DNA from: Butyricimonas synergistica DSM 23225
GTDB lineage: Bacteria > Bacteroidota > Bacteroidia > Bacteroidales > Marinifilaceae
Direction: 5' to 3'
Assembly: GCF_000379665.1 (NCBI RefSeq)
Contig: NZ_KB903372.1
Span: 62,822 to 126,821 of the forward strand
Length of the DNA: 64,000 nt
Shown here: positions 9,556 to 23,159 of the stretch, piece by piece
Layout: each line of letters starts with the position of its first letter
Numbering within the stretch: the stretch's first letter is position 1
Notes under the pieces: model-generated
What the model was told of the DNA's origin: nothing
The model's input: only the letters and a program-made list of their open reading frames with translations
The model's database searches: none
Translations under genes and position numbers: made by a program

Positions 9556-9670
9556 TATGAATGATAAATCTATAATTAAGTATCTATCATTAAACCTTCG
9601 TTTATTGCTATCATGCCATATTTTCCCGTAAAAAAAGAGAACTTCACGAAACCATCTAATTGTCAGAGGA

Positions 9671-9710
9671 AAAAAACATCCTATCTAAAAGTCTGTGAGA
9701 TGTTTTTTTT
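9671..9710 (+). terminator. Hairpin terminator downstream of the gene at 8902
   Basis: AAAAACATC (9672-9680) pairs with GATGTTTTT (9699-9707), followed by more T residues to 9710. The loop is about 18 nt. It lies inside the inverted-repeat segment. Because the A- and T-rich arms are symmetric it could terminate in either direction. Confidence 0.55.
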
Positions 9711-9712
9711 CG

Positions 9713-9720
9713 TATTTTTG
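9713..9720 (+). promoter_or_regulatory. Predicted -7 element (TATTTTTG) of the ECF sigma gene
   Basis: An exact match to TAnnTTTG, 26 bp before the sigma start codon. The identical octamer precedes the second sigma gene (43005-43012, minus strand). It sits inside the possible invertible segment. If the segment flipped, the bases placed in front of sigma would contain no TAnnTTTG. Confidence 0.6.
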
Positions 9721-9746
9721 AAATCAATAAACGAAGGTTTAATGCA

Positions 9747-10301
9747 ATGGGTGCTATAATCACATACGAAGACATTAAAAATGGGGATATTAAAGCCTTT
9801 GAAACTCTCTTTCAAGAGTTTTATCCTTCTATGTGTATTGTCGCTACGAAATTCATCGCTGATCAAACAGCGGCAGAAGACATTGTACAAGAGGCGTTTA
9901 TCAAACTGTGGGAAAAACGAAATGCTTACCAAGATATTCCTAGCTTAAAAACATTTCTTTACGTGTCTGTCAAGAATTTATGCTTCAATCACATCCGGGA
10001 TAGAAAGGTCACTATCGACTATACTTCGCCTGAAGCGGAAAAGCAAGAGGTCATTTTCAAAGATCTTTTGATCGAGGAGGAAACATATCGAATTATAGAA
10101 GATGCAGTAAACGCCCTACCCCCGCAAAGCGCACGAATAGTTAAAATGTATTTAGAAGGAAAACAAAACAAAGAAATCTCAGAAATCCTAAATATTTCCG
10201 TCAATTCTGTTAAAACGCTAAAATACAACGCACTAAATTCGTTACGAACGATATTAAAAGACTATTTTTACGTTCTTTTGCTATTTCTGGCAGAAAAATA
10301 A
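9747..10301 (+). CDS. ECF RNA polymerase sigma factor (Bacteroidota expansion, FecI/RpoE-like)
   Basis: A 184-residue protein. Region sigma2 covers about residues 8-75 ('IKNGDIKAFETLFQEFYPSMCIVATKFIAD' then 'AEDIVQEAFIKLWEK'). Region sigma4 covers about residues 115-170 ('AVNALPPQSARIVKMYLEGKQNKEISEILNISVNSVKTLKYNALNSLR'), a helix-turn-helix that reads the -35 element. The hydrophobic tail 'FYVLLLFLAEK' is typical of this Bacteroidota family. Such factors are held by a membrane FecR anti-sigma and released when the SusC partner binds ligand. Here the FecR gene is not adjacent: four ABC/Gld genes (10413-16926) lie between, and then FecR and SusC follow. ATG at 9747 is chosen. An in-phase start is not possible at the ATG at 9742, which falls in the inverted repeat and is out of frame. 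Confidence 0.93.
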   Translation: MGAIITYEDIKNGDIKAFETLFQEFYPSMCIVATKFIADQTAAEDIVQEAFIKLWEKRNAYQDIPSLKTFLYVSVKNLCFNHIRDRKVTIDYTSPEAEKQEVIFKDLLIEEETYRIIEDAVNALPPQSARIVKMYLEGKQNKEISEILNISVNSVKTLKYNALNSLRTILKDYFYVLLLFLAEK

Positions 10302-10345
10302 TTCTAAAAGAAATGTCAAAATAACGTGAAAAAGCTCCCTCGATT

Positions 10346-10373
10346 CATCCTTTCCCAGTTTTGTCGTGTTCTG
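10346..10373 (+). promoter_or_regulatory. Predicted ECF-sigma promoter CATCC-N17-GTTCTG before the first ABC gene
   Basis: CATCC (10346-10350) and GTTCTG (10368-10373) are separated by 17 bp and lie 40 bp before the ATP-binding protein start. The same bipartite motif with the same 17-bp gap precedes both FecR genes in this window (16940-16967 and 42341-42368). I infer these are -35/-10 elements read by the locus sigma factor. Confidence 0.6.
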
Positions 10374-10412: not shown

Positions 10413-11345
10413 ATGGAAGAATCAGTAGTAAAAGTCGAACATCTCTCGCATCGCTACAGCGTACAGTGGGCGATTAAAGACATCAATTTCGAAATTAAAC
10501 GCAAAGGAACTCTCGGGTTGCTCGGCTCGAACGGGGCGGGGAAATCCACCACGATGAATATCATTTGCGGAGTTCTTAATCAGACAGCCGGAGAAGTATA
10601 TATAAATGGTATCAATCTTCGGGAAAATCCGGTCGAGGCTAAAAAACATATTGGTTTTCTTCCACAGAAACCGCCATTGTATCCGGACCTCACGGTCGAC
10701 GAATACCTGACTCACTGCGCCTTGATGCGTCTGGTTGATAAAAATCAAGTCAAAACCGCAGTGGAAAAAGCAAAGAATCGCTGCGGTATAGCACATTTCA
10801 GCAGACGGTTGATCAAAAACTTATCCGGAGGGTACCAGCAACGAGTGGGTATTGCCCAAGCTATCGTGCATAACCCGAGATTCGTGATTCTTGATGAACC
10901 AACAAACGGATTGGACCCGAATCAAATCGTAGAAGTACGACACCTAATTAAAGAGATTGCTGAAGACCATTCCGTGTTGCTTTCCACTCACATCTTGCCG
11001 GAAGTACAAGCCACTTGCGACAACATTATCATGATCGAACACGGGAAAATCGTTTTCTCGGGCACCATGGATGATTTTTCCAATTACATGGAGCCTAATA
11101 CTTTTATCGTTTCCATGACAGCCCCCCCGTCAATAGACACCTTATCAAAAATCCCGGGAATCACTCACGTGGAGCATATCACGGACACCCGATTCAGAAT
11201 GCATTTCAGTTCAGGACAAGAGATTACCCAAAAAATGATCGAATTGAGTGTTACCAATAATTGGCATCTGCACGAGATTATACTGGAAAGAGATTCTCTC
11301 GATGCGGCATTTGCCCAACTGTCAGGAAAAAATATTCAAAAATAA
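10413..11345 (+). CDS. ABC transporter ATP-binding protein, GldA-like (copy 1)
   Basis: A 310-residue ATPase. Walker A is GSNGAGKS at residues 38-45, the signature is LSGGYQQ at about 138-144, and Walker B is FVILDEPTNGLDP at about 157-169 with the H-loop STH. After the ATPase core comes a C-terminal domain of about 80 residues ('PSIDTLSKIPGITHVEHITDTRFRMHFSSGQEITQ') found in GldA/CcmA/NosF-type ATPases. The partner permease starts 16 bp downstream. A near duplicate lies at 13677. GldA with GldF and GldG is needed for gliding in Flavobacterium, but homologues occur in non-gliding Bacteroidota, where the cargo is unknown. Its own CATCC-N17-GTTCTG motif suggests sigma-dependent expression. Confidence 0.92.
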   Translation: MEESVVKVEHLSHRYSVQWAIKDINFEIKRKGTLGLLGSNGAGKSTTMNIICGVLNQTAGEVYINGINLRENPVEAKKHIGFLPQKPPLYPDLTVDEYLTHCALMRLVDKNQVKTAVEKAKNRCGIAHFSRRLIKNLSGGYQQRVGIAQAIVHNPRFVILDEPTNGLDPNQIVEVRHLIKEIAEDHSVLLSTHILPEVQATCDNIIMIEHGKIVFSGTMDDFSNYMEPNTFIVSMTAPPSIDTLSKIPGITHVEHITDTRFRMHFSSGQEITQKMIELSVTNNWHLHEIILERDSLDAAFAQLSGKNIQK

Positions 11346-11361
11346 AAGACACCATTTATAT

Positions 11362-13659
11362 ATGAAAACAATATTCAGACTAGCGAAGACAGAACTTCGC
11401 ATTCTATTCTGTTCGCCTGTATCTTGGCTGATCCTAGTGATTTTCGCCTTTCAGGCAGGGTTAAATTTTTCGGACAACTTCGGTGGACAATTAAAACGCC
11501 AAGCCCTGGAATACGGGCTGGGCGGGATTACCAAAGAAACATTTGCCGGGTACACGGGGTTATTCGTTTCCATGCTCAAAAGCCTGTACCTTTACATTCC
11601 GCTTATTACCATGGGACTAATGAGCCGGGAATTAAGCAGCGGCTCTATTAAATTTTTGTATTCATCACCGATAACTACAACGCAAATTATTCTCGGCAAA
11701 TACCTTTCCATGTTGATTTACGGTGCAATGCTAGTGGTTATCTTATTAATATACGTTGTTTTCGGTGCATTCACTATAGAGAATATGGATTTGCCTTTCG
11801 TCCTTACCGGCTTACTGGGGCTCTATTTGCTCACGTGCGCTTACGCCGCGATAGGGCTTTTCATGTCAAGCATCACATCTTACCAAGTTGTCGCCGCCAT
11901 GGGAACATTGGCTGTTTTGGCCGTGTTGAATTTCATCGGTGAAATTGGACAAGATATTTCACTCGTGCGCGACATCACATACTGGCTGTCTATCTCGGGA
12001 CGCGCTTACAAGTTCCTTGCCGGAATAATATGCAGCGAGGACATTTTGTACTTCATTATCGTGGTGATGTTGTTTATCCTACTTTCTGTCATGCGCCTAC
12101 AAGCTGCCCGGAAAAAACGCAGTTCGCTTGTTACTTCCGCCCGTTACTTTGCAGTTGTCGGTTGCGCGCTTTTTATCGGATACCTGTCATCGTTACCTGT
12201 CTGCAAATTTTATTATGACGCGACAGCCCTCAAGGTAAACACACTGACTCCCGGCAGTCAAGAAGTTGTTAAAAATCTTGATGGAGGCCTGAAAATCACA
12301 ACTTACATGAATATTTTGGACGCCAATTATGGCAGTGCCCTTCCCAGCCAATTAAAAAGCGACTTCGAACGTTTCGAACAATACGTGCGCTTCAAGCCAG
12401 AAATCAAAATGGAATACGTTTATTACTACGCATCTTCCGTGGAGCCCTCTTTCGATGGCCGATTCATGGAGTTGCAAGGGAAAGAAAGAGCTGAACGTAT
12501 CTGTAAAATCATGAATCTGGATTTTGATATGTTCCTTTCACAGGAAGAAATAGATCAAGTCATCGATTTAAAATCCGAAGGCTATCGTTTCGTCCGCGTG
12601 CTGGAACGGGAAAACGGGCAAAAGGCAACCTTGCGCCTTTACAACGACATGATGAAACATCCATCGGAAACAGAGATTACCACAGCATTGAAACGCTTTT
12701 TAGTACCAGCCCCCAAAGTAGCGTTCCTTACCGGTCATGGCGAACGTAGCGTGAACAGTGGTGGAGACCGTTTCTATTACACGTTTGCCCGGAGTATTTA
12801 TTTCCGCCACTCGTTGATCAACCAAGGATTTGACGCCATGACCTTATCCATTAAAGATAAAGATATTCCGGAAGATGTAAATATACTGGTTATCGCCGAC
12901 ATGCGCAGTCCGCTTTCCGACGAGGAAATGGCAAGACTGGAAAGGTATATCGATCGAGGTGGCAACCTATTCATCCTTGGAGAACCCAATCGACAAGAAG
13001 CCATGAACCCGTTGCTCTCTCGTTTCGGGGTAAAACTTATGCCCGGAACTCTCGTGCAGCGCAACCAGGATTACCTGCCATCCGTTATCACGGCACGCCT
13101 TACGGACCATGCCGCGGCACAAAGTCCCCGCTATGCCAAAGTCAAAGATTGGGAAGCTTGTATCGCCATGCCCGATGCCTCCGCCCTGCAATATGACACA
13201 GACAAAGGATACACGGTCAAACCTATCGCGACGACTCTTCCGAAAGATAGTTGGAATGAATTGGAAACAACGGACTTCCTAGACGGGGAGTTGTCCATCA
13301 ACGAAGCTATCGGCGAGAAGGAAGCATCTTATCCCATCGTCCTAGCACTAACCTGCCAACGGGGAGCTAAAGAACAACGTATCGTGATCGCGGGAGATGC
13401 CGACTGCATCAGCAACACGGAATTGGCAAACAGCCGTAACGGTATTTTCGCGGTTAATTTCGATTTCATCAGCGAAACGTTTAAATGGTTGTCATACGGA
13501 GAATTCCCCATAGAAACCTCTCGTCCTGAAGCCATTGATAACACGATATTCCTAACCCGCAAAGCCACCCCGTGGATAAAAGCTTTTTCACTAGGAGTAA
13601 TTCCATTTATCCTGGCTTTCGCCGGACTTATGGTGTGGTACAAGAGAAGAAAGTTTTAA
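11362..13659 (+). CDS. GldF-GldG fusion: ABC-2 permease joined to a GldG-type periplasmic domain (copy 1)
   Basis: 765 residues from the ATG at 11362; the longer frame from 11248 overlaps the ATPase gene and is not needed. Residues 1-240 form an ABC-2 permease with about six membrane segments ('SWLILVIFAFQAGLNF', 'YLYIPLITMGLMSRELSSGSIKFLYSSPITTTQII', 'TCAYAAIGLFMSSITSYQVVAAMGTLAVLAVLNF'). After a further membrane helix comes a GldG-like domain (about 285-720: 'VNTLTPGSQEVVKNLDGGLKITTYMN', 'KVAFLTGHGERSV', 'VNILVIADMRSPLSDEEMARLERYIDRGGNLFILGEPNRQ'). A last membrane helix leads to a basic tail. In Flavobacterium GldF and GldG are separate proteins; here they are one chain. Paired with the ATPase upstream. 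Substrate unknown. Confidence 0.9.
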   Translation: MKTIFRLAKTELRILFCSPVSWLILVIFAFQAGLNFSDNFGGQLKRQALEYGLGGITKETFAGYTGLFVSMLKSLYLYIPLITMGLMSRELSSGSIKFLYSSPITTTQIILGKYLSMLIYGAMLVVILLIYVVFGAFTIENMDLPFVLTGLLGLYLLTCAYAAIGLFMSSITSYQVVAAMGTLAVLAVLNFIGEIGQDISLVRDITYWLSISGRAYKFLAGIICSEDILYFIIVVMLFILLSVMRLQAARKKRSSLVTSARYFAVVGCALFIGYLSSLPVCKFYYDATALKVNTLTPGSQEVVKNLDGGLKITTYMNILDANYGSALPSQLKSDFERFEQYVRFKPEIKMEYVYYYASSVEPSFDGRFMELQGKERAERICKIMNLDFDMFLSQEEIDQVIDLKSEGYRFVRVLERENGQKATLRLYNDMMKHPSETEITTALKRFLVPAPKVAFLTGHGERSVNSGGDRFYYTFARSIYFRHSLINQGFDAMTLSIKDKDIPEDVNILVIADMRSPLSDEEMARLERYIDRGGNLFILGEPNRQEAMNPLLSRFGVKLMPGTLVQRNQDYLPSVITARLTDHAAAQSPRYAKVKDWEACIAMPDASALQYDTDKGYTVKPIATTLPKDSWNELETTDFLDGELSINEAIGEKEASYPIVLALTCQRGAKEQRIVIAGDADCISNTELANSRNGIFAVNFDFISETFKWLSYGEFPIETSRPEAIDNTIFLTRKATPWIKAFSLGVIPFILAFAGLMVWYKRRKF

Positions 13660-13676
13660 ATTTTAAATTACAACAC

Positions 13677-14615
13677 ATGGAAAATTCAATTGTAAAGGTC
13701 GAACATTTGTCTCACCGGTATCATATACATTGGGCAATAGAAGATATTAATTTCGAAATCAAAGAAAAAGGAGTATTGGGGTTACTTGGCTCCAATGGAG
13801 CTGGGAAATCCACTACCATGAATATTATTTGCGGCGTATTGAACCAGACCGAAGGAGAGGTTTACCTTAACGGTTACAGCCTCCGGGAGAACCCAATAGA
13901 AGCGAAACGCCATATTGGGTTCCTTCCCCAAAAACCTCCTCTCTACCCGGATATTACCGTGGAAGAATACCTAACTTATTGTGCCAACTTGCGACTCATG
14001 CCGACAAAAGATATACCCGAAGCCGTCAAACGGGCCATGGAACGCTGCGACATCACGCATTTCCGCAACCGGATGATCAGTAATCTTTCCGGGGGATACC
14101 AACAACGGGTGGGTATCGCACAAGCTATCGTACATAATCCCAGTTTCGTTATTTTGGACGAACCTACAAACGGTCTTGACCCGAACCAAATTGTCGAGAT
14201 TCGCCGCTTGATAAAAGAAATCGCCACAGATCATGCCGTATTGTTGTCTACCCATATCTTATCCGAGGTACAGGCAACTTGCAACAATATCCAAATGATC
14301 GAACAGGGGAAACTTGTATTCTCAGGAAGCATGGATGACTTCAACAACTACGTGGCTCCATCCTCTTTATTAGTCCGGTTTGAAGCCGCCCCTTCATTAC
14401 AGACTCTTGAAGCGATTGAAGATGTTGACTCCGTGGAACAAATCGACCGGCAAAGCTATCGCCTGCGATTTGACGCGTCAAAAGAAATTAGCGAACGGAT
14501 TGTTCAACTCAGCGTGACCAATGCTTGGCAATTATGCGAGATTCAACTGGAGCGACTGGCTCTTGACACGATTTTCGCCCAGCTATCAGGAAAAAAGTTC
14601 AATTGTAAAAAATGA
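13677..14615 (+). CDS. ABC transporter ATP-binding protein, GldA-like (copy 2)
   Basis: 312 residues from the ATG at 13677. The frame opens earlier at 13572, but that part overlaps the permease gene; starting at 13677 gives 'MENSIVKVEHLSHRYHIHWAIEDINFEIK', colinear with copy 1 (MEESVVKVEHLSHRYSVQWAIKDINFEIK). Walker A (GSNGAGKS), signature (LSGGYQQR), Walker B (FVILDEPTNGLDP) and H-loop (STH) are all intact. The C-terminal domain has drifted more than the ATPase core relative to copy 1. It starts 17 bp after permease copy 1 and ends 10 bp before permease copy 2, so all four genes form one operon. I see no CATCC-N17-GTTCTG motif in front of this copy. Confidence 0.92.
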   Translation: MENSIVKVEHLSHRYHIHWAIEDINFEIKEKGVLGLLGSNGAGKSTTMNIICGVLNQTEGEVYLNGYSLRENPIEAKRHIGFLPQKPPLYPDITVEEYLTYCANLRLMPTKDIPEAVKRAMERCDITHFRNRMISNLSGGYQQRVGIAQAIVHNPSFVILDEPTNGLDPNQIVEIRRLIKEIATDHAVLLSTHILSEVQATCNNIQMIEQGKLVFSGSMDDFNNYVAPSSLLVRFEAAPSLQTLEAIEDVDSVEQIDRQSYRLRFDASKEISERIVQLSVTNAWQLCEIQLERLALDTIFAQLSGKKFNCKK

Positions 14616-14625
14616 AACCCCATCT

Positions 14626-16926
14626 ATGAAAACAATATTAAAGATAACCAAAAACGAACTTAGCACGCTATTCTATTCCCCAATAGCCTGGCTTATTCTT
14701 ATTATCTTCACGTTCCAATCGGGAATGACTTTCGCGGACGCTTGGGCCGGCATTTTACGCTCACTGGCACTCGGTTATAACCTGTACAATATTACCGAAC
14801 GTTTGCTTCTCGGCTATGCTGGAGCCATATCCGGCATGCAAGATAACCTGTACCTTTACATTCCACTCCTGACCATGGGACTCATGAGCCAAGAGTATAA
14901 TAGAGGATCCATCAAATTACTTTATTCCTCCCCGGTAAGCAATCGCCAGATTATTTTTGGGAAATACCTTTCCATGATTGTTTACGCGCTATTACTCATC
15001 GCGGTTCTTTTTATCTATTACGTGTTCGCTGCATTTTCGATAATAAACATAGATACTCCTTACGTTTTTGTCGCTTTATTGGGAATTTTCCTAATGGTGT
15101 GCGCTTACGCTGCCATCGGTTTGTTCATGTCGACCCTGACATCTTACCAAGTTGTTGCCGCCGTGGGGACGCTGGCAGTATTGGCCTCCTTGAATTATAT
15201 CGGTAATATCGGACAAGAAATACCTTTCGTACGCGACATCACTTATTGGCTCTCCATATCGGGACGTGCGGATACCTTTTTCCGCGGCCTTGTATGCAGT
15301 GAAGATTTGCTCTATTTCCTTCTTGTTATCGCGCTCTTCATAACACTTTCCATACTTCGCTTACAAGCAGAACGCACCAAACGTTCCGCTACACAAAATA
15401 CACTCCGGTATGGTGGCGTTATTTTATTGACTCTCGTTATCGGTTACACGAGTTCCCGTCCTTATGCACGCGTATATTACGATGCAACGGAAATGAAAGA
15501 AAACACCTTGACCCAAAACAGCCAGGATGTCATGAAAAAACTGGATGGTCCCTTATCCATCACGACATACGTCAACATGTTGGACGAAGACTATTACCGA
15601 GGCATGCCCCGTTATTACAACGATGATAACAAACGATTTGAAAAATATATCCGTTTTAAACCGGAAATTAAAATGAAATATGTCTACTATTATGACAAAG
15701 TTGCCAACCCGCGCCTTCAACAACGTTATCCTGGTTTGACAGACGAGCAATGCCTGGAAAAGATATGTGAAGTTGAAGACGTGGACGTAGAAGACATCCT
15801 TACCCCTGAAGAAATTCGCAAGCAAGAAGATCTTTCGGGCGAATATAATAAATTTGTCCGCGTTATAGAACGCGGCAACGGGCAAAAAGCTTTTCTCCGA
15901 ATATACGATGATAACTACAGGCATCCTTCTGAAACAGAAATCACGGCCGCACTCAAACGCATGGTGGTAAAATCCCCGTTGGTAGCATTTCTCACCGGTC
16001 ACGGAGAACGGAATATTAACGGAGCCGGAGAACGCGATTATTACGCCTTCTCCCAATATAAATCTTTCCGCAATTCACTCGTCAATCAAGGCTTTAACTG
16101 CATATCTTTGTCGCTTGACAGCCTTGATGCCATCCCGAATGACGTTGATATTCTCGTCATTTCAGACATACGCACATCTTTACTTGATAGAGAACAAAAA
16201 ATTATTGAAAACTATGTTGGAGAAGGTAGAAATCTTTTAATCGCGGGCGAGCCCCGGCGTCAAGAACAAATGAACCCATTGCTCGCCCTTTTCGGGTTAA
16301 AGTTTATGCCCGGTATTCTTGTACAGGAAAGTAAAGATTTTTCTGCCGACCTGATTTTAGCTTCTGCCACTCAAGCCGCAAGCGAATTGTCTCGCTCTTT
16401 CTACAGGATGGCTCGTTATGGTAGCAAAGCAACAATGCCAACCGCTGTCGAAATACGACAGGTTGAAGAAAAGGGGTTCACCCTGACCCCGCTATTAATG
16501 ACGGATTCAACCGGAACATGGAATGAATTGGAAACCACTAATTTCATTGAAGACACAGCCCGTGTCAATCCCGCTATCGGAGAAATAGAGAAAGCATACG
16601 CCACCATGTTATACCTTACCCGGCAAATAAATGGCAAAGAACAGCGTGTCATCGTCCTCGGGGATGCTGATTGTATCGGAAATGGAGAGTTGTCTAAACA
16701 GCGCAACGGACTTGACGCAAAAAACTTCACGCTTGTAACAGAATCTTTCAGATTGCTTTCCAACGGGGAATTCCCCGTGGACACGCATCGGAATTATTCT
16801 TCGGACAGAGGTGTACACTTGGGACAAAAAGCGGGAATCTGGATAAACATTCTTTTCATGGGAATGATCCCGGGAATTCTTGTCTTACTATACCTTTGCT
16901 TGTGGTGGAAACGAAAAAGCAAATAA
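14626..16926 (+). CDS. GldF-GldG fusion ABC permease (copy 2)
   Basis: 766 residues from the ATG at 14626; the frame from 14521 overlaps the ATPase gene. It is colinear with copy 1 throughout: ABC-2 permease (about 1-240, 'YLYIPLLTMGLMSQEYNRGSIKLLYSSPVSNRQIIFGKYLSMI'), then the GldG-type domain ('ENTLTQNSQDVMKKLDGPLSITTYVN', 'LVAFLTGHGERNINGAGERDYYAFSQYKSF', 'NYVGEGRNLLIAGEPRRQEQMNP'). It closes with a membrane helix ('IWINILFMGMIPGILVLLYLCLWWKRKSK'). The two copies keep every block in order but differ at many residues, so this is an old duplication, perhaps with different cargoes or forming heteromeric pumps (inference). The anti-sigma promoter motif begins 13 bp after its stop codon. Confidence 0.9.
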   Translation: MKTILKITKNELSTLFYSPIAWLILIIFTFQSGMTFADAWAGILRSLALGYNLYNITERLLLGYAGAISGMQDNLYLYIPLLTMGLMSQEYNRGSIKLLYSSPVSNRQIIFGKYLSMIVYALLLIAVLFIYYVFAAFSIINIDTPYVFVALLGIFLMVCAYAAIGLFMSTLTSYQVVAAVGTLAVLASLNYIGNIGQEIPFVRDITYWLSISGRADTFFRGLVCSEDLLYFLLVIALFITLSILRLQAERTKRSATQNTLRYGGVILLTLVIGYTSSRPYARVYYDATEMKENTLTQNSQDVMKKLDGPLSITTYVNMLDEDYYRGMPRYYNDDNKRFEKYIRFKPEIKMKYVYYYDKVANPRLQQRYPGLTDEQCLEKICEVEDVDVEDILTPEEIRKQEDLSGEYNKFVRVIERGNGQKAFLRIYDDNYRHPSETEITAALKRMVVKSPLVAFLTGHGERNINGAGERDYYAFSQYKSFRNSLVNQGFNCISLSLDSLDAIPNDVDILVISDIRTSLLDREQKIIENYVGEGRNLLIAGEPRRQEQMNPLLALFGLKFMPGILVQESKDFSADLILASATQAASELSRSFYRMARYGSKATMPTAVEIRQVEEKGFTLTPLLMTDSTGTWNELETTNFIEDTARVNPAIGEIEKAYATMLYLTRQINGKEQRVIVLGDADCIGNGELSKQRNGLDAKNFTLVTESFRLLSNGEFPVDTHRNYSSDRGVHLGQKAGIWINILFMGMIPGILVLLYLCLWWKRKSK

Positions 16927-16939
16927 TTGTTGTTGCATT

Positions 16940-16967
16940 CATCCTTTTACACACTTCATGTGTTCTG
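16940..16967 (+). promoter_or_regulatory. Predicted ECF-sigma promoter CATCC-N17-GTTCTG before FecR
   Basis: CATCC at 16940-16944 and GTTCTG at 16962-16967, with a 17-bp spacer, followed by TAAATAG. GTTCTG ends 35 bp before the ATG at 17002. That is the same distance as in the second FecR gene (42341 to 42306), which supports 17002 as the true start. Confidence 0.65.
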
Positions 16968-17001
16968 TAAATAGATAATGAAACCTAAATATCGGAAACT
17001 T

Positions 17002-18174
17002 ATGCCAGAGTACACAAAAGAATACCGGATCGCACAGCTTTTAGCGAAACAAATGACGGGCTCTCTCACTCCAGAAGAGGAGCACGAACTGCAAGAATGG
17101 GAAAACAACCCTTCCAACAAGTCGCTTCGGATTAAAATCGAAGACCCGGAAAACAAGCGCCGACGCACTTCGCTTATACATGAATTGGACACGAATTCTT
17201 CATGGCAAAAAGTGGAGAAACGCATTTCACGAAAAAGCAAGGCGCGTATACATAAACTTGCATGGTGGTCAAGCACTGCCGCCGCTATTATTTTGTTAGC
17301 TCTGGCATTATTGCCCAATATTTCTTCGAAAAAAGAGATGAAAAATGCCATTCCTGTAGCCAAAGTACAGCCGGGAAGTTTCAAGGCGACATTCATCACT
17401 CCCGAAGGAAAACAATTCAATCTTTCGCTTCAAGATACAACCCGCATCCTTGAACTTGGTTCCGGCATTCGAGTTATTGCCAAAAAGCAAGGCATTGAAT
17501 ACATCGGTGACGACAAAGCTATCAATTATAAAGGGAAAAAGAATACCGTTCGGGTTCCGAGAGGAGGAGAATATGAATTAATATTACCGGATGGAACTCA
17601 TGTATGGATCAATTCGGATTCCGAGTTATCCTTCCCCGTTCAATTCAGCAACGACAAACGGGAAGTATTACTTTCCGGGGAGGCTTATTTTGATGTTGCC
17701 AAAATGCAAGACTGCCCATTCATCGTGAAGACGAATAATCTTGACATTCAAGTATTGGGTACACAATTCAATGTTCAAGCTTACCCCGATGCAAAAGTTA
17801 CGGAAACGACCTTATGCGAAGGTTCTGTCAAAGTTTCTGATGGAGAAAACAGCGTAACCCTACATCCTTCCCAACAAGCGGTGTACGTGAAAGCGGACAA
17901 GAATCTATCTACCCGAAAAGTGAACACACGCGCGTACACAACTTGGAGAAAAGGAATGTTCGTGTTCGAAAATGAATCTCTCGAGAATATCATGAACACT
18001 CTTTCCCGCTGGTATGACATCCACGTGTTCTACGAATCCCCTGTCGTGAAAACCTATCATTTCACGGGAGACCTCGAGCGATATAGCAATTTTCAACAAG
18101 CACTTAATATGATAGAAAAAGCAACATCCATTCAATTCGTTATAAATGGAAATACCGTTATCGTCAAACAATAA
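17002..18174 (+). CDS. FecR-family membrane anti-sigma factor (FecR domain plus DUF4974)
   Basis: 390 residues from the ATG at 17002 (MPEYTKEYRIAQLLAKQMTG). I prefer this to 16978 because it aligns with the second FecR (MMEYPKDYKISRLIAKKMIG) and keeps the promoter distance equal. The N-terminal cytoplasmic anti-sigma part (about 1-85) is followed by one membrane helix ('WWSSTAAAIILLALALLPNI'). Then come the periplasmic FecR domain (about 110-290, 'VRVPRGGEYELILPDGTHVWINSDSELSFPVQF', 'EVLLSGEAYFDVAKM') and a DUF4974 domain at the end ('FENESLENIMNTLSRWYDIHVFYESPVVKTYHFTGDLERYSNFQQAL'). It senses the loaded SusC through that protein's N-terminal STN domain and controls the sigma factor at 9747, from which it is separated by four ABC genes. 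SusC follows after 50 bp. Confidence 0.92.
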   Translation: MPEYTKEYRIAQLLAKQMTGSLTPEEEHELQEWENNPSNKSLRIKIEDPENKRRRTSLIHELDTNSSWQKVEKRISRKSKARIHKLAWWSSTAAAIILLALALLPNISSKKEMKNAIPVAKVQPGSFKATFITPEGKQFNLSLQDTTRILELGSGIRVIAKKQGIEYIGDDKAINYKGKKNTVRVPRGGEYELILPDGTHVWINSDSELSFPVQFSNDKREVLLSGEAYFDVAKMQDCPFIVKTNNLDIQVLGTQFNVQAYPDAKVTETTLCEGSVKVSDGENSVTLHPSQQAVYVKADKNLSTRKVNTRAYTTWRKGMFVFENESLENIMNTLSRWYDIHVFYESPVVKTYHFTGDLERYSNFQQALNMIEKATSIQFVINGNTVIVKQ

Positions 18175-18224: not shown

Positions 18225-21200
18225 ATGGAAAAAAAACGAAAGAGTACTTTTGATTTTCATCAAAAGGGGAAGAAGATGCTTCTCATTCTACGAACAGCTC
18301 TCTTTTTCTTGCTCATTCAGGCTTTCACCGTGGAAGCGAATGCGTCGGGACAAGTGGCTAAAATCACGATGAAGATGGAAAATGCCACCATTGATGAATT
18401 AATCAAAACCGTAAGAACGGAAACCGATTACAAGTTTCTTTACCGTATTGAAGAAGTGAATAAATACGGGAAACGGGACGTAAACCTCCAAAATGCATCC
18501 ATTGAAGAATTTTTAACAAACATTTTGAAAGGGACAAATTTGTCATACGAAATAGAAAATGACGTGATCATCATTCGTCCTTCCAAAGATGATGATAAAA
18601 AAACAAAGGAAGCACGAAATATAAAAGGAACGGTTTATGATGAAAAAGGGCAGACGCTACCGGGAGCCACAATCATGATAAAAGGCACTGCTGTAGGAGT
18701 TGTAACGGATGCCGACGGGAAATTCAAGTTGGAAATTCCCAGGATGGACAGTATCGTTCTGGTAGTATCTTTTATCGGATACGAAACGTTGCATCTCCCG
18801 TTGAGCGAAGACCCGAAAGATGATAAAAAAGAACTTGTCATCAAACTAAAAGAGGACATCACCGAGATGGAAGAGGTGGTGGTTACCGGTTACGGTAAAG
18901 TCCGGAAAGAAAGTTTCACGGGAAGCAGCGTCAGCGTATCGCAAGAACAATTGATGAAAGTTTCTAAAACCAATGTTTTGAAAGCTTTACAGGCGTTCGA
19001 TCCCTCCTTCCGCATACAAACCAACAACCAATGGGGATCCGACCCGAATGCTTTGCCAGAAATGTATATCCGGGGACGTTCGGGAATTGGAGTCAAACAA
19101 CTGGACGCCAATTACACGAGTAAAGGGAATCTGCAAAATAACCCGAATTTGCCGACCTTTATCATGGACGGATTTGAGATCAGCGTCCAAAAACTATACG
19201 ATATGGATCCGGCACGTATTGCTAACATCACGATACTGAAAGACGCTGCCGCAACCGCACTTTACGGTTCGCGCGCTGCCAATGGGGTTGTCATCATCAC
19301 CACGGTAGCCCCGAAGCCGGGGAAACTGAACATATCGTACAGCTTAACGGGAGAAGTAACCATGCCGGACTTGTCCGCCTACAATTTGATGAACGCCAAA
19401 GAAAAATTGGAAACGGAACGACTTGCCGGAGCTTTTGAACCCTATGAAGGTCCCTACCAGTATGATATTGATTTAGAGTTGGAACAAAGATACCAGGCAA
19501 AACTGAATAACATTGTAAAAGGTGTTGACACTTATTGGTTGTCGCTCCCCCTGCAAACTGCCTTTAACCACAAACACAGCCTGTTTATCGAGGGCGGTTC
19601 GGACAACTTGCGTTTTGGCGTTGATTTGTCGTATTATAACGAAGACGGCGTGATGAAAGGCTCTTTCCGAGACCGCTTGGGAGCCGGAGTCACTTTAGAT
19701 TACCGCTTCAAAAATCTCCAAGTAAAGAACCAAACCAGTTTCAACATCACAAAATCCAAAGAATCACCCTACGGTTCCTTCAGCAATTTCGCGAACGCAT
19801 TACCATATAACGAATACAAAGATGAAGCCGGACGTTATTTGGAGGAATTGAATACCTGGGGTGAAGGAAACACATTCCCCAATCCCATGTATGAAGCATC
19901 TTTAAAAAACTTTGACAAATCCCAGACGGAGGAATTTATAAACAATCTATCCGTAAATTGGAACATCGGGCAATACTGGTTGTTGAAAGGCCAGTTCAGT
20001 CTCACCCGACGAATGAACGAAAGTCGCCGTTTCTTGGATCCGTTATCTAAACAAAATGCCAATCCCATTTCCACCTTTAACTCGACTTCAGGAGAATTAC
20101 ATACCACGGACGGCAATAGTTTCAGTTGGGATATGCAGGCAACCCTCTCTTATAACCGTACCATCGAGAAACACAATATCAATTTCCTGGTCGGTGTCAA
20201 CCAAAAAGCTTCAAAGACGGAAAGCATTTCCGCCGAATACCGGGGATTTCCTTCCGGAGTATTAAATTCCCCCAATTACGCGGAAGAAATATACGAGAAG
20301 CCAAAAGCCTCCGAGAACAGCACCCGCCTTGTGGGTTTCTTGGGAACAATCAACTACAGCTATAATAACATTTATTTGCTGGATGCATCCGTGCGTATGG
20401 ACGGTTCTTCCGAATTCGGTTCGGACAAACGTTTCGCTCCATTCGGATCATTCGGGGTCGGAATCAATATCCACAACTATGCATTCATGAAAAATTGGGG
20501 CAAGTTCGATCTATTGAAGATAAGAGGAACTTACGGGGAAACAGGAAAAGTAAACTTCCCTTCTTACGTTGCCCGCACGACATTCAAGATCCTCTCCGAC
20601 GAATGGTACAAAACCGGATTCGGAGCCACGTTAATGGCACTGGGAAATAAGGATTTGACTTGGGAAACGACCAAAGAATACAACATCGGTATCGAGGTGG
20701 GCATATTACAAGATCTACTATACATGGATGCCACTTATTACCGGAAAAAAACCGTAGACTTGATTAACAACGTAACCATTCCCAGTTCTACCGGATTCAC
20801 TACTTACATGGATAATATAGGAGAAATCGAAAATAAAGGTTTCGAATTGAATTTCAGGGCAAACGTTATACGACAGGATAACCTTTTCGTGGCATTGTTC
20901 GCTAACCTGGCTCACAATCGAAATAAAATCTTAAAAATATCCGAAAGCTTAAAAGCATACAACGACTCTATAGACCAACACTTCAAAGAGGACAGAGATG
21001 AAAATCAACCATTTTTAAAATACGTTGAAGGAGGGTCACTGACTTCCATCTTCGGTATGCGCTCCCTGGGCATAGATCCTGCCACAGGCGACGAGATTCT
21101 ACTCAAGCGTAACGGAGAGCAAACAAAAACCTGGTCTTCCAGTGAACAAACCGTACTGGGGAACACGGAACCGGACGCACAGGGTACTTTCGGAATCAAC

Positions 21201-21656
21201 GTGACCTGGAAAAATTGGAGTTTGTACGCCACTTTCATGTACGAATTCGGAGGAGACGCTTACAATCAAACTTTAGTAGATAAAGTCGAAAACGCCAATA
21301 TCTACACGATGAATGTCGATAAGCGAATTTTAACGGAACGTTGGCAAAAACCGGGAGATGTAAAAAAATACCGCAAATTGGCATTAAGGGAAAACAAAGG
21401 TTCGTTCTCGATACCCACAACCCGGCCTACCGAACGGTTCGTTCAAAAAAACAACAATTTATCGTTAAATTCTATCACACTGGGATACAGCCTGCAAGCC
21501 GATTCTCACCGTTGGTTGAAAACGAGCGGCATCAGTATGTTGCGTTTTGAAATCGGGGCCAACGAACTATTCTATTGGTCCAGCATCAAGGCAGAAAGAG
21601 GATTGAGTTACCCCTTTGCCAGAACCATGAATTTTTCTTTAAACCTAACTTTCTAA
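18225..21656 (+). CDS. SusC-family TonB-dependent transporter with an N-terminal STN signalling domain
   Basis: 1143 residues. A basic leader and hydrophobic signal ('MLLILRTALFFLLIQAFTVEANA') come first. An STN domain follows (about 45-120, 'AKITMKMENATIDELIKTVRTETDYKFLYRIEEV'), which contacts FecR in trans-envelope signalling. Next are a carboxypeptidase-regulatory-like domain (about 131-210, 'GTVYDEKGQTLPGATIMIKGTAVGVVTDADGKF'), a TonB box/plug ('MEEVVVTGYGKVRKESFTGSSVSVS', 'EMYIRGRSGIG', 'LYGSRAANGVVIITT') and a beta-barrel ending in '...ARTMNFSLNLTF'. All parts are present. It is the ligand importer of block C and lies between FecR and SusD. It is a paralogue of 37559-41008 and of the partial gene at the right edge. 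No hydrolase follows in its operon. Confidence 0.96.
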   Translation: MEKKRKSTFDFHQKGKKMLLILRTALFFLLIQAFTVEANASGQVAKITMKMENATIDELIKTVRTETDYKFLYRIEEVNKYGKRDVNLQNASIEEFLTNILKGTNLSYEIENDVIIIRPSKDDDKKTKEARNIKGTVYDEKGQTLPGATIMIKGTAVGVVTDADGKFKLEIPRMDSIVLVVSFIGYETLHLPLSEDPKDDKKELVIKLKEDITEMEEVVVTGYGKVRKESFTGSSVSVSQEQLMKVSKTNVLKALQAFDPSFRIQTNNQWGSDPNALPEMYIRGRSGIGVKQLDANYTSKGNLQNNPNLPTFIMDGFEISVQKLYDMDPARIANITILKDAAATALYGSRAANGVVIITTVAPKPGKLNISYSLTGEVTMPDLSAYNLMNAKEKLETERLAGAFEPYEGPYQYDIDLELEQRYQAKLNNIVKGVDTYWLSLPLQTAFNHKHSLFIEGGSDNLRFGVDLSYYNEDGVMKGSFRDRLGAGVTLDYRFKNLQVKNQTSFNITKSKESPYGSFSNFANALPYNEYKDEAGRYLEELNTWGEGNTFPNPMYEASLKNFDKSQTEEFINNLSVNWNIGQYWLLKGQFSLTRRMNESRRFLDPLSKQNANPISTFNSTSGELHTTDGNSFSWDMQATLSYNRTIEKHNINFLVGVNQKASKTESISAEYRGFPSGVLNSPNYAEEIYEKPKASENSTRLVGFLGTINYSYNNIYLLDASVRMDGSSEFGSDKRFAPFGSFGVGINIHNYAFMKNWGKFDLLKIRGTYGETGKVNFPSYVARTTFKILSDEWYKTGFGATLMALGNKDLTWETTKEYNIGIEVGILQDLLYMDATYYRKKTVDLINNVTIPSSTGFTTYMDNIGEIENKGFELNFRANVIRQDNLFVALFANLAHNRNKILKISESLKAYNDSIDQHFKEDRDENQPFLKYVEGGSLTSIFGMRSLGIDPATGDEILLKRNGEQTKTWSSSEQTVLGNTEPDAQGTFGINVTWKNWSLYATFMYEFGGDAYNQTLVDKVENANIYTMNVDKRILTERWQKPGDVKKYRKLALRENKGSFSIPTTRPTERFVQKNNNLSLNSITLGYSLQADSHRWLKTSGISMLRFEIGANELFYWSSIKAERGLSYPFARTMNFSLNLTF

Positions 21657-21668
21657 AATTTAATTGTT

Positions 21669-23159
21669 ATGAAAGTAATCAGTATCATTTCAACAATATT
21701 CATTCTGGCCTTGACCTCCTGCAACTCATGGCTAGACATCACCCCCCAAGACACGGTGGACGAAGATAAGCTATTCGCCACAGGGGACGGATACCGTAAC
21801 GTATTAAACGGCGTGTACAAACAAATGGCAACCTCCTCCATGTATGGACAGGAATTAAGCTGGGGTATGCTGGATGTAATGGCGCAATTGTATCAATCAC
21901 GAGCTTTCGGTTCGGCCACGAACTATTACAAGATTATAACGAAATACAATTACGAAGACAGGGATATAAAACCCGTCATCCAGACTATTTGGTCGCAAGC
22001 TTACAATTCCATAGCTAATTGCAATAGCCTGTTAAGCAAAATAGACGAAACAGATTCCACGCTATTCAGGGCTTTGAATCACGAAAAATTATTGATTAAA
22101 GGAGAAGCATTGGCGTTACGGGCTTTCCTACACTTCGACTTACTCAGGCTCTTTGCCCCAGCTCCGGTGACCAAAAACACAGGAACACACATACCCTATT
22201 TCACGACTTATCCGTCGACGTTCGAACCGGACCGCACGGTAAAAGAAGTCTTGGAACTTGCCATCAAGGATTTGGAAGAAGCCAAAAACCTTGTCGCTCC
22301 GCATGACACATTAGACTGGCGGTATATGTTGACAGATGCTCAAAGAATACATTACGATGGACTAAATCCAAAAGCAAATCCAGATTTGTTCTTCAAGAAC
22401 AGAGGGTTCCGAATGAATTATCTCGCCGTTTGCGCATTATTGGCAAGGGTGTACAATTACATGGGAGAATTGGACGCAACCTATTACCAAAAATCATACG
22501 ACATGGCAGAACATGTCCTTACGTTTGCCATAGACCCAAACAGCTACCGCCAAACTTTAGACTTCACGAAATATTATTACACGGATAAAAACAAGAAACG
22601 GTACGAGGAGATACTTTTCTGCCTTTCCAACCAAAAACTAATGGAAAATTACGAACTTCTGACATCAAGCAATTCACCTAAGATTAAATTCTATCTGCAA
22701 TCTCCCGGTTCCTTGTTTGACGATAATGCCGACGCCCGGTGGACGGAATTAATAGAAGCCAGCGGCAGCTATCAAATTTGTACTAAAAACATCGCTCCAT
22801 CTGGAGATATAGGCGAATTCAAATACTGCCAAGATATGTTACCCATGATCCGTTTAGGCGAATTGTACTACATACAAGCAGAACATCTTTGCCGCCAAGG
22901 TGATATTCAAGGAGCAATAGAGAAACTTGATAAAGTAAGGTATGCCCGCAACTGCCAAACCGGTAGCATGGGCGAAATGAGCAAGAAAATCAAAGACCTT
23001 GAATCCTTCAAACAGCAAATGGCAAAGGAAGCGTTGCGAGAATTCATGCAAGAAGGACAAGCATTCTTTTATTACAAACGCTTCAATATATTTCCTAAAA
23101 CCGGCATGAAAGACGCTGATATGATTTTACCCAAACCGGAAAACGAAACTATTCACTAA
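21669..23159 (+). CDS. SusD/RagB-family surface nutrient-binding lipoprotein
   Basis: 496 residues; lipobox 'ALTSC-NSWLDITPQDTVDEDKLF', which is the classic SusD N-terminus. The TPR-like helical body contains 'LIKGEALALRAFLHFDLLRLFAPAPV', and the C-terminal region 'AKEALREFMQEGQAFFYYKRF' matches the usual 'RREWLGEGQxFFxYKR' element with drift. It is the lid partner of the SusC that ends 12 bp upstream. Family members bind the imported ligand on the cell surface. It is followed by a DUF4843 and a PKD-like lipoprotein, the same order as in the two minus-strand blocks, so the four genes form a conserved import module. Confidence 0.95.
   Translation: MKVISIISTIFILALTSCNSWLDITPQDTVDEDKLFATGDGYRNVLNGVYKQMATSSMYGQELSWGMLDVMAQLYQSRAFGSATNYYKIITKYNYEDRDIKPVIQTIWSQAYNSIANCNSLLSKIDETDSTLFRALNHEKLLIKGEALALRAFLHFDLLRLFAPAPVTKNTGTHIPYFTTYPSTFEPDRTVKEVLELAIKDLEEAKNLVAPHDTLDWRYMLTDAQRIHYDGLNPKANPDLFFKNRGFRMNYLAVCALLARVYNYMGELDATYYQKSYDMAEHVLTFAIDPNSYRQTLDFTKYYYTDKNKKRYEEILFCLSNQKLMENYELLTSSNSPKIKFYLQSPGSLFDDNADARWTELIEASGSYQICTKNIAPSGDIGEFKYCQDMLPMIRLGELYYIQAEHLCRQGDIQGAIEKLDKVRYARNCQTGSMGEMSKKIKDLESFKQQMAKEALREFMQEGQAFFYYKRFNIFPKTGMKDADMILPKPENETIH

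Follow-up and report, generated by a model that had tools for sequence, protein, structure and literature searches.

The window, a stretch of 64,000 nucleotides that was analysed as a whole, raises the question of why an ECF sigma factor gene should be preceded by a short promoter segment enclosed between inverted repeats, and how much of the locus behind it would depend on that segment. The evidence laid out below points to a real invertible promoter of Mpi type, which would be ON in this assembly, i.e., to a known mechanism on an unusual target. The features concerned are collected in Table 1.

Table 1. Features of the sigma locus and of its putative promoter switch (positions in the window)
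Feature	Position	Strand	Basis or remark
Left arm CATTAAACCTTCGTTTATTG	9588..9607	+	crossover dinucleotide TT at 9597-9598
Interior of the putative invertible segment, 117 bp	9608..9724	.	orientation opposite in G004
-7 promoter box TATTTTTG, toward sigma	9713..9720	+	usual distance in the family, 13 bases to the crossover centre
Right arm, exact inverse of the left arm	9725..9744	-	crossover dinucleotide AA (+ strand) at 9734-9735
ECF sigma factor gene, 184 aa, proposed target of the switch	9747..10301	+	TIGR02985, Sigma70_r2 and r4_2
Motif TTCATCCTTT-N12-GTGTTCTG before the ABC cassette, candidate sigma promoter	10344..10373	+	
Two ABC/Gld-like cassettes	10413..16926	+	ORFs; Pfam matches of the first ATPase and first permease
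ABC/Gld-like ORFs	10413-11345, 11365-13659, 13677-14615, 14626-16926	+	
Motif TTCATCCTTT-N12-GTGTTCTG, second copy, before FecR	16938..16967	+	
FecR anti-sigma	16978..18174	+	FecR and FecR_C domains
SusC, STN domain present	18225..21656	+	domain search
SusD	21669..23159	+	domain search

Rechecking of letters and coordinates confirmed that the two 20-bp arms are perfect inverted repeats and that the right arm, ending at 9744, stops 2 bp before the sigma ATG at 9747. A repeat search extends the arms to 26 nt (9588-9613 and 9719-9744, 92% complementary, with a gap of 105 nt), and at up to three mismatches the 20-mer occurs in the 64-kb window at just these two places (shuffle mean 0.01, n = 100). 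It had also been claimed that a promoter faces sigma as sequenced and that no TAnnTTTG would face it after a flip, which holds, since the TATTTTTG box is directed to the gene and no strict TAnnTTTG of opposite direction lies within the segment. A weak point is the lack of a TTG at about -33 for this box. The RNA structure of the interior is not more stable than that of shuffles (z 0.45).

The genome of the window (G000, 4.77 Mb) was compared with five genomes of the same genus (G001-G005, of which G004 is Butyricimonas sp. Marseille-P3923) and with G016, from another genus of the family. If the segment inverts, the original prediction expected further copies of the half-site, other invertible loci and a recombinase in the same genome, and all of these were found. 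At up to three mismatches the window 20-mer has 18 matches genome-wide and none in the reversed control; the matches correspond to 15 distinct places, because palindromic ones are counted on both strands. At least 20 paired switches were recognized, with arms like AATAAAC-SWW-CGTTTATT, and among 20 of them the starts of partner arms lie 137-142 bp apart in 15, 150-152 bp in three, 127 bp in one and 215 bp in one. The spacing clusters are separated by steps of about one helical turn, the helical reading being speculative. A wide consensus gave 131 matches at up to three mismatches against 84 in the reversed control, so that weak matches are mostly due to chance, and strong sites and pairing were relied on instead; a stricter two-arm pattern yields just five pairs (listed on both strands; control one on each strand), because most arms deviate from it. 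Outside the set of 20 are five alternative pairings, three of them with equal central bases, and sites without a good partner at C9:129549, C2:858001 and C1:1 (contig end). Within the set, the second arm of L030 is weak and the right arm of L046 is uncertain, being taken at 13990 in the central-dinucleotide count and favoured at 14005 by the comparison with G004. Sites also stand at the very start of contigs (G000 C1:1-18 and G004 C4:2-19), where mixed orientations perhaps broke the assembly. The switches have among their neighbours ECF systems, upxY-like genes (L033, L034), genes of polysaccharide export (L030) and of glycan transferases (L038), and DUF3575 or fimbrillin-like genes (L036, L039, L041, L045). 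No convincing interior motif or recombination enhancer is common to the 20 switches, in which shared 8-mers are A/T-rich and reach at most six of 20.

Partner arms differ at many non-central positions, and their central dinucleotide (AA, TT or AT) is equal in all 20 pairs; with shuffled partners it was equal in 6.8 pairs on average and in 15 at most in 20,000 trials. Within-pair identity at the two central positions is 1.00 against 0.56 expected, an excess of 0.44, and at the other positions of the 18 the excess is at most 0.09. The same equality is seen in G004, at all 12 distinct paired loci. In serine recombinases the strand exchange takes place across an overlap of 2 bp. Since the central two bases are the only ones with a marked excess, the pattern points to a serine invertase with a 2-bp crossover. 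The promoter has its typical place as well: 12 of the 20 switches have a strict TAnnTTTG at a distance of 12-15 bases from a crossover centre (shuffled interiors: mean 0.13, maximum 2), and eight of these 12, the window's excepted, also carry TTG near -33. In the remaining eight, a strict box is missing there.

If the segments flip, related genomes should be found in both states, and this was examined by fixing the orientation through the flanks and aligning the interiors both ways to G004, which covered the 13 of the 20 switches for which an orthologous locus was available. Seven are inverted relative to G004 (L031, L033, L035, L037, L040, L048 and the window), five have the same orientation (L032, L034, L038, L046 and L049), and one is uninformative (L044, no interior match). 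Because L033 and L034, two upxY paralogues, match the same G004 loci, they do not count as independent. For the window itself the alignment score was reached by 12 of 5000 shuffles in the flipped direction and by 462 of 5000 in the same direction (5 and 39 of 500 in a second run), which is modest support, owing to the divergence of the interior. The inversion shows most clearly in the TATTTTTG box, which the orthologous locus of G004 likewise carries at a distance of 13 bases, but pointing away from sigma. The locus is conserved also in G016 (sigma 68% identical, both ABC cassettes, FecR and part of SusC), where the arms are present and the TACATTTG box is directed away from sigma. The orthologous sigma gene of G003 (66%) has a fixed promoter, TACCTTTG, upstream (box read by eye) and no arms within 450 bases upstream. 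Between species, thus, both orientations exist at Mpi-type switches.

Four Resolvase-domain matches were found in the genome, two of them Mpi-like (mpiA and mpiB), together with ten Phage_integrase and two large serine recombinase matches. mpiB scores 272.6 bits with its start trimmed and 271.7 untrimmed against the NF009949 cut-off of 272; mpiA (260.4 bits) and all three mpiB orthologues that were scored fall under it. An mpiB match is present in all six genomes of the genus, at 81-100% identity. From this we infer that an Mpi-like invertase acts on the arms of the window. A switch of the same kind lies between mpiB and a divergent HU-family gene (L048:5656-6887; G000 C9, ~361.7-362.9 kb), its box being directed toward mpiB in G000 and away from it in G001-G005; the HU-like gene adjoins mpiB in six of six genomes, and G001, G002, G003 and G005 have an extra TAnnTTTG toward mpiB outside the segment. 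The opposite orientation of orthologues, the genome-wide family of sites with a 2-bp core and the Mpi-like invertases of the same genome together argue for the inversion that had been proposed at the outset.

One may ask if the same features could be explained without recombination. The arms are nearly palindromic and flank a promoter, as would operators of a dimeric regulator that represses by looping, yet such operators account neither for interiors of relatives that are inverted relative to their flanks nor for a covariation between arms confined to the two central bases, and we regard them as a very improbable explanation. Still harder to credit is a small MITE-like insertion element carrying a promoter by chance: a length of 157 bp, inverted ends and dispersed relatives of those ends would suit it, whereas the interiors have no common sequence, inspection by eye shows no target repeat at its ends, and G004 and G016 have the element in the orthologous position, free in orientation.

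If the segment does flip, the enzyme might be a tyrosine recombinase or an unrelated one, as ten Phage_integrase matches would allow and as is described, in the accessible part of the source, for other Bacteroides promoters (PMC4747536). An enzyme with a 6-8-bp spacer should need identity beside the centre, however, and position 7 agrees in 55% of pairs; besides, the sites resemble Mpi sites and Mpi-like genes are present, which leaves such an enzyme a quite unlikely candidate. It is also unlikely, in our judgement, that a once-active switch has become frozen in this strain, with the promoter driving sigma constitutively. The assembly does show a single orientation, and the orthologous sigma of G003 manages with a fixed promoter and without arms; against this, the arms of the window are still perfect while other, working-looking pairs have drifted, and in G000 a promoter box points toward an intact Mpi-like gene. 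Flipping is more plausibly an ongoing process in this strain.

We consider it highly probable that an Mpi-type invertase flips the promoter of the window and that the ON or OFF state of sigma arms or disarms the whole locus. This reading builds on features present in the sequence itself, i.e., the arms, the site family, the 2-bp rule, promoter placement, orthologue orientation, the invertase genes and the motif pair. The Mpi-type serine invertase, encoded elsewhere in the genome, would recombine the arms at the central dinucleotide, so that the segment flips. The sequenced state would be ON, with the -7 box toward the ECF sigma gene, and the flipped state OFF, with no recognisable promoter toward it. 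The FecR anti-sigma presumably restrains sigma, which would act on one promoter before the ABC/Gld cassette and on another before FecR-SusCD, and a single flip would thereby arm or disarm the entire locus.

The sigma factor scores 138.7 bits against the TIGR02985 cut-off of 126.4, and ECF sigma, FecR and an STN-bearing SusC, by which ECF/FecR/SusCD systems are recognized, all lie in one locus. Both ABC/Gld-like cassettes are kept in G004 and G016 (the ORF starts at 11365, 13677 and 14626 were picked from the alignment). The motif TTCATCCTTT-N12-GTGTTCTG was first spotted by eye in upstream sequences and then counted genome-wide: it has two copies in G000, before the ABC cassette and before FecR, two copies at the same two places in G004, one copy in G003, directly after sigma, and none in G001, G002 and G005, the reversed control giving none in the six genomes. 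In G016 the copy before FecR is exact and the one before the ABC cassette differs by one base. Rare and conserved, the motif is the best candidate for the promoter of this sigma, though it was spotted by eye, and it is probably the sequence through which sigma drives both the ABC cassette and FecR. Its position makes a FecR start at 17002 more likely. Another motif before the ABC cassette, TGAAAAA-N-GTCGT, was dropped, with 0.38 occurrences expected by chance and no conservation in G004. The original prediction had supposed a cascade from sigma through ABC/Gld to FecR-SusCD, and the motif before the ABC cassette and FecR may be added in its favour as indirect support. Its term 'master switch' is better replaced by 'pathway switch', since six other ECF sigma genes also have a segment upstream.

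The sigma repertoire of G000 is large, with 116 Sigma70_r2 matches in the genome, and 114 of them are presumed ECF genes after exclusion of two whose open frames measure 302 and 308 aa. The upstream regions of 104 were scanned afresh, the other ten lying within loci already examined, and one new candidate pair appeared (L235; reversed control 0 of 104). In total, seven of the 114 have a segment upstream: the window, L035, L040, L043, L044, L049 and the candidate L235. A strict box is directed toward the sigma gene in the window, L035, L040 and L049, and none was found at the typical place in L043 and L044. A lone site (L047:6002; G000 C2:858001) beside the ECF sigma gene C2:857767-857967 has no partner arm that could be found and is possibly a decayed switch. 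Other switches stand deeper in ECF systems, between sigma and FecR (L042:5695-5852) and between FecR and SusC (L032:5864-6021). Across the family, the module of promoter and arm was matched 58 times, in 12 of 56 genomes (six of 17 genera; control six in five genomes), and nine of the 30 loci examined adjoin a sigma gene, including L202, which is the L049 switch of G000 itself. At L199 (G003 C1:373984) and L218 (G002 C18:22473) the segment is flanked by two divergent ECF sigma genes, a pair that Pfam confirmed for G003 and that is presumed for G002; a flip there could choose between the two. A broader idea, which we offer tentatively and hold to be somewhat doubtful, is that in Butyricimonas and its relatives the Mpi-type system has risen to the level of regulators, flipping ECF sigma and FecR and, for two relatives, the choice between divergent sigmas, so that few flips would re-wire regulons, and that the switch of the invertase would give self-limiting bursts, its own segment facing the divergent HU-family gene when the other way round.

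Known systems are compared here as described in the accessible parts of the papers cited. Mpi inverts 13 regions in B. fragilis (PMC4747536), or 'at least thirteen' (PMC5903667), and there, as in Butyricimonas, short promoter segments lie between inverted repeats at scattered loci (PMC4747536, PMC5903667), capsule (upxY) genes are among the targets and the invertase is of the Mpi family of serine invertases. The quoted repeat core ARACGTTCGTN (PMC8375218) is close to the AAAC[C/G]WWCGT of Butyricimonas arms, and the window arms, AAACCTTCGT, are one base off it. G000 has core-like repeats, an inner TAnnTTTG facing the target, 20 scattered sites and an Mpi-family invertase. In contrast to B. fragilis, several Butyricimonas targets are ECF sigma genes, arm starts are mostly 137-142 bp apart, C is often found in place of G at the outer base, and the invertase gene is preceded by such a segment. 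BF3407, an ECF sigma gene of B. fragilis with an invertible promoter nearby, is raised in the ON/ON state (PMC4747536). In Bacteroides intestinalis, the invertible promoters of capsule loci have the repeat GTTCGTTTAA, an inner promoter and Mpi homologues in the genome, but their segments are 183-186 bp and serve capsule operons (PMC8375218). The flagellar switch of Clostridioides difficile likewise sets an alternative sigma and a wider regulon under an invertible element, but sigD is one gene of a 23-kb operon and not the direct target (PMC7241687), and RecV is a tyrosine recombinase (PMC5903667).

Odoribacter splanchnicus is a related bacterium. Numerous inversion sites are described for it (PMC5903667), and invertible promoters of regulatory genes are mentioned in general terms (PMC10939037), both in the accessible text of these papers. 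In the accessible texts, surface structures are the main setting in which promoter flipping of gut Bacteroidales is described, and no report of an invertible promoter directly before a Bacteroidota ECF sigma gene was found in the accessible literature, subscription papers aside. The window shares ECF sigma, FecR with FecR_C, STN-bearing SusC and SusD with the usual Bacteroidota ECF/FecR/SusCD systems, and differs from them in the apparently invertible promoter on sigma and in the two ABC/Gld-like cassettes between sigma and FecR. What appears to be new is the placement of an Mpi-type promoter switch on sigma factors, the mechanism being already known. Similar switches elsewhere can be sought by a simple sequence test, namely the 2-bp core rule together with the fixed promoter placement. 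If the flip acts on the sigma of a sigma/anti-sigma/SusCD circuit, signal sensing would be overlaid by a heritable on/off layer, and a cell in the OFF state could not respond to the signal at all. The proportion of ECF sigma genes with a segment upstream (7/114) suggests that sensing itself is hedged in the population.
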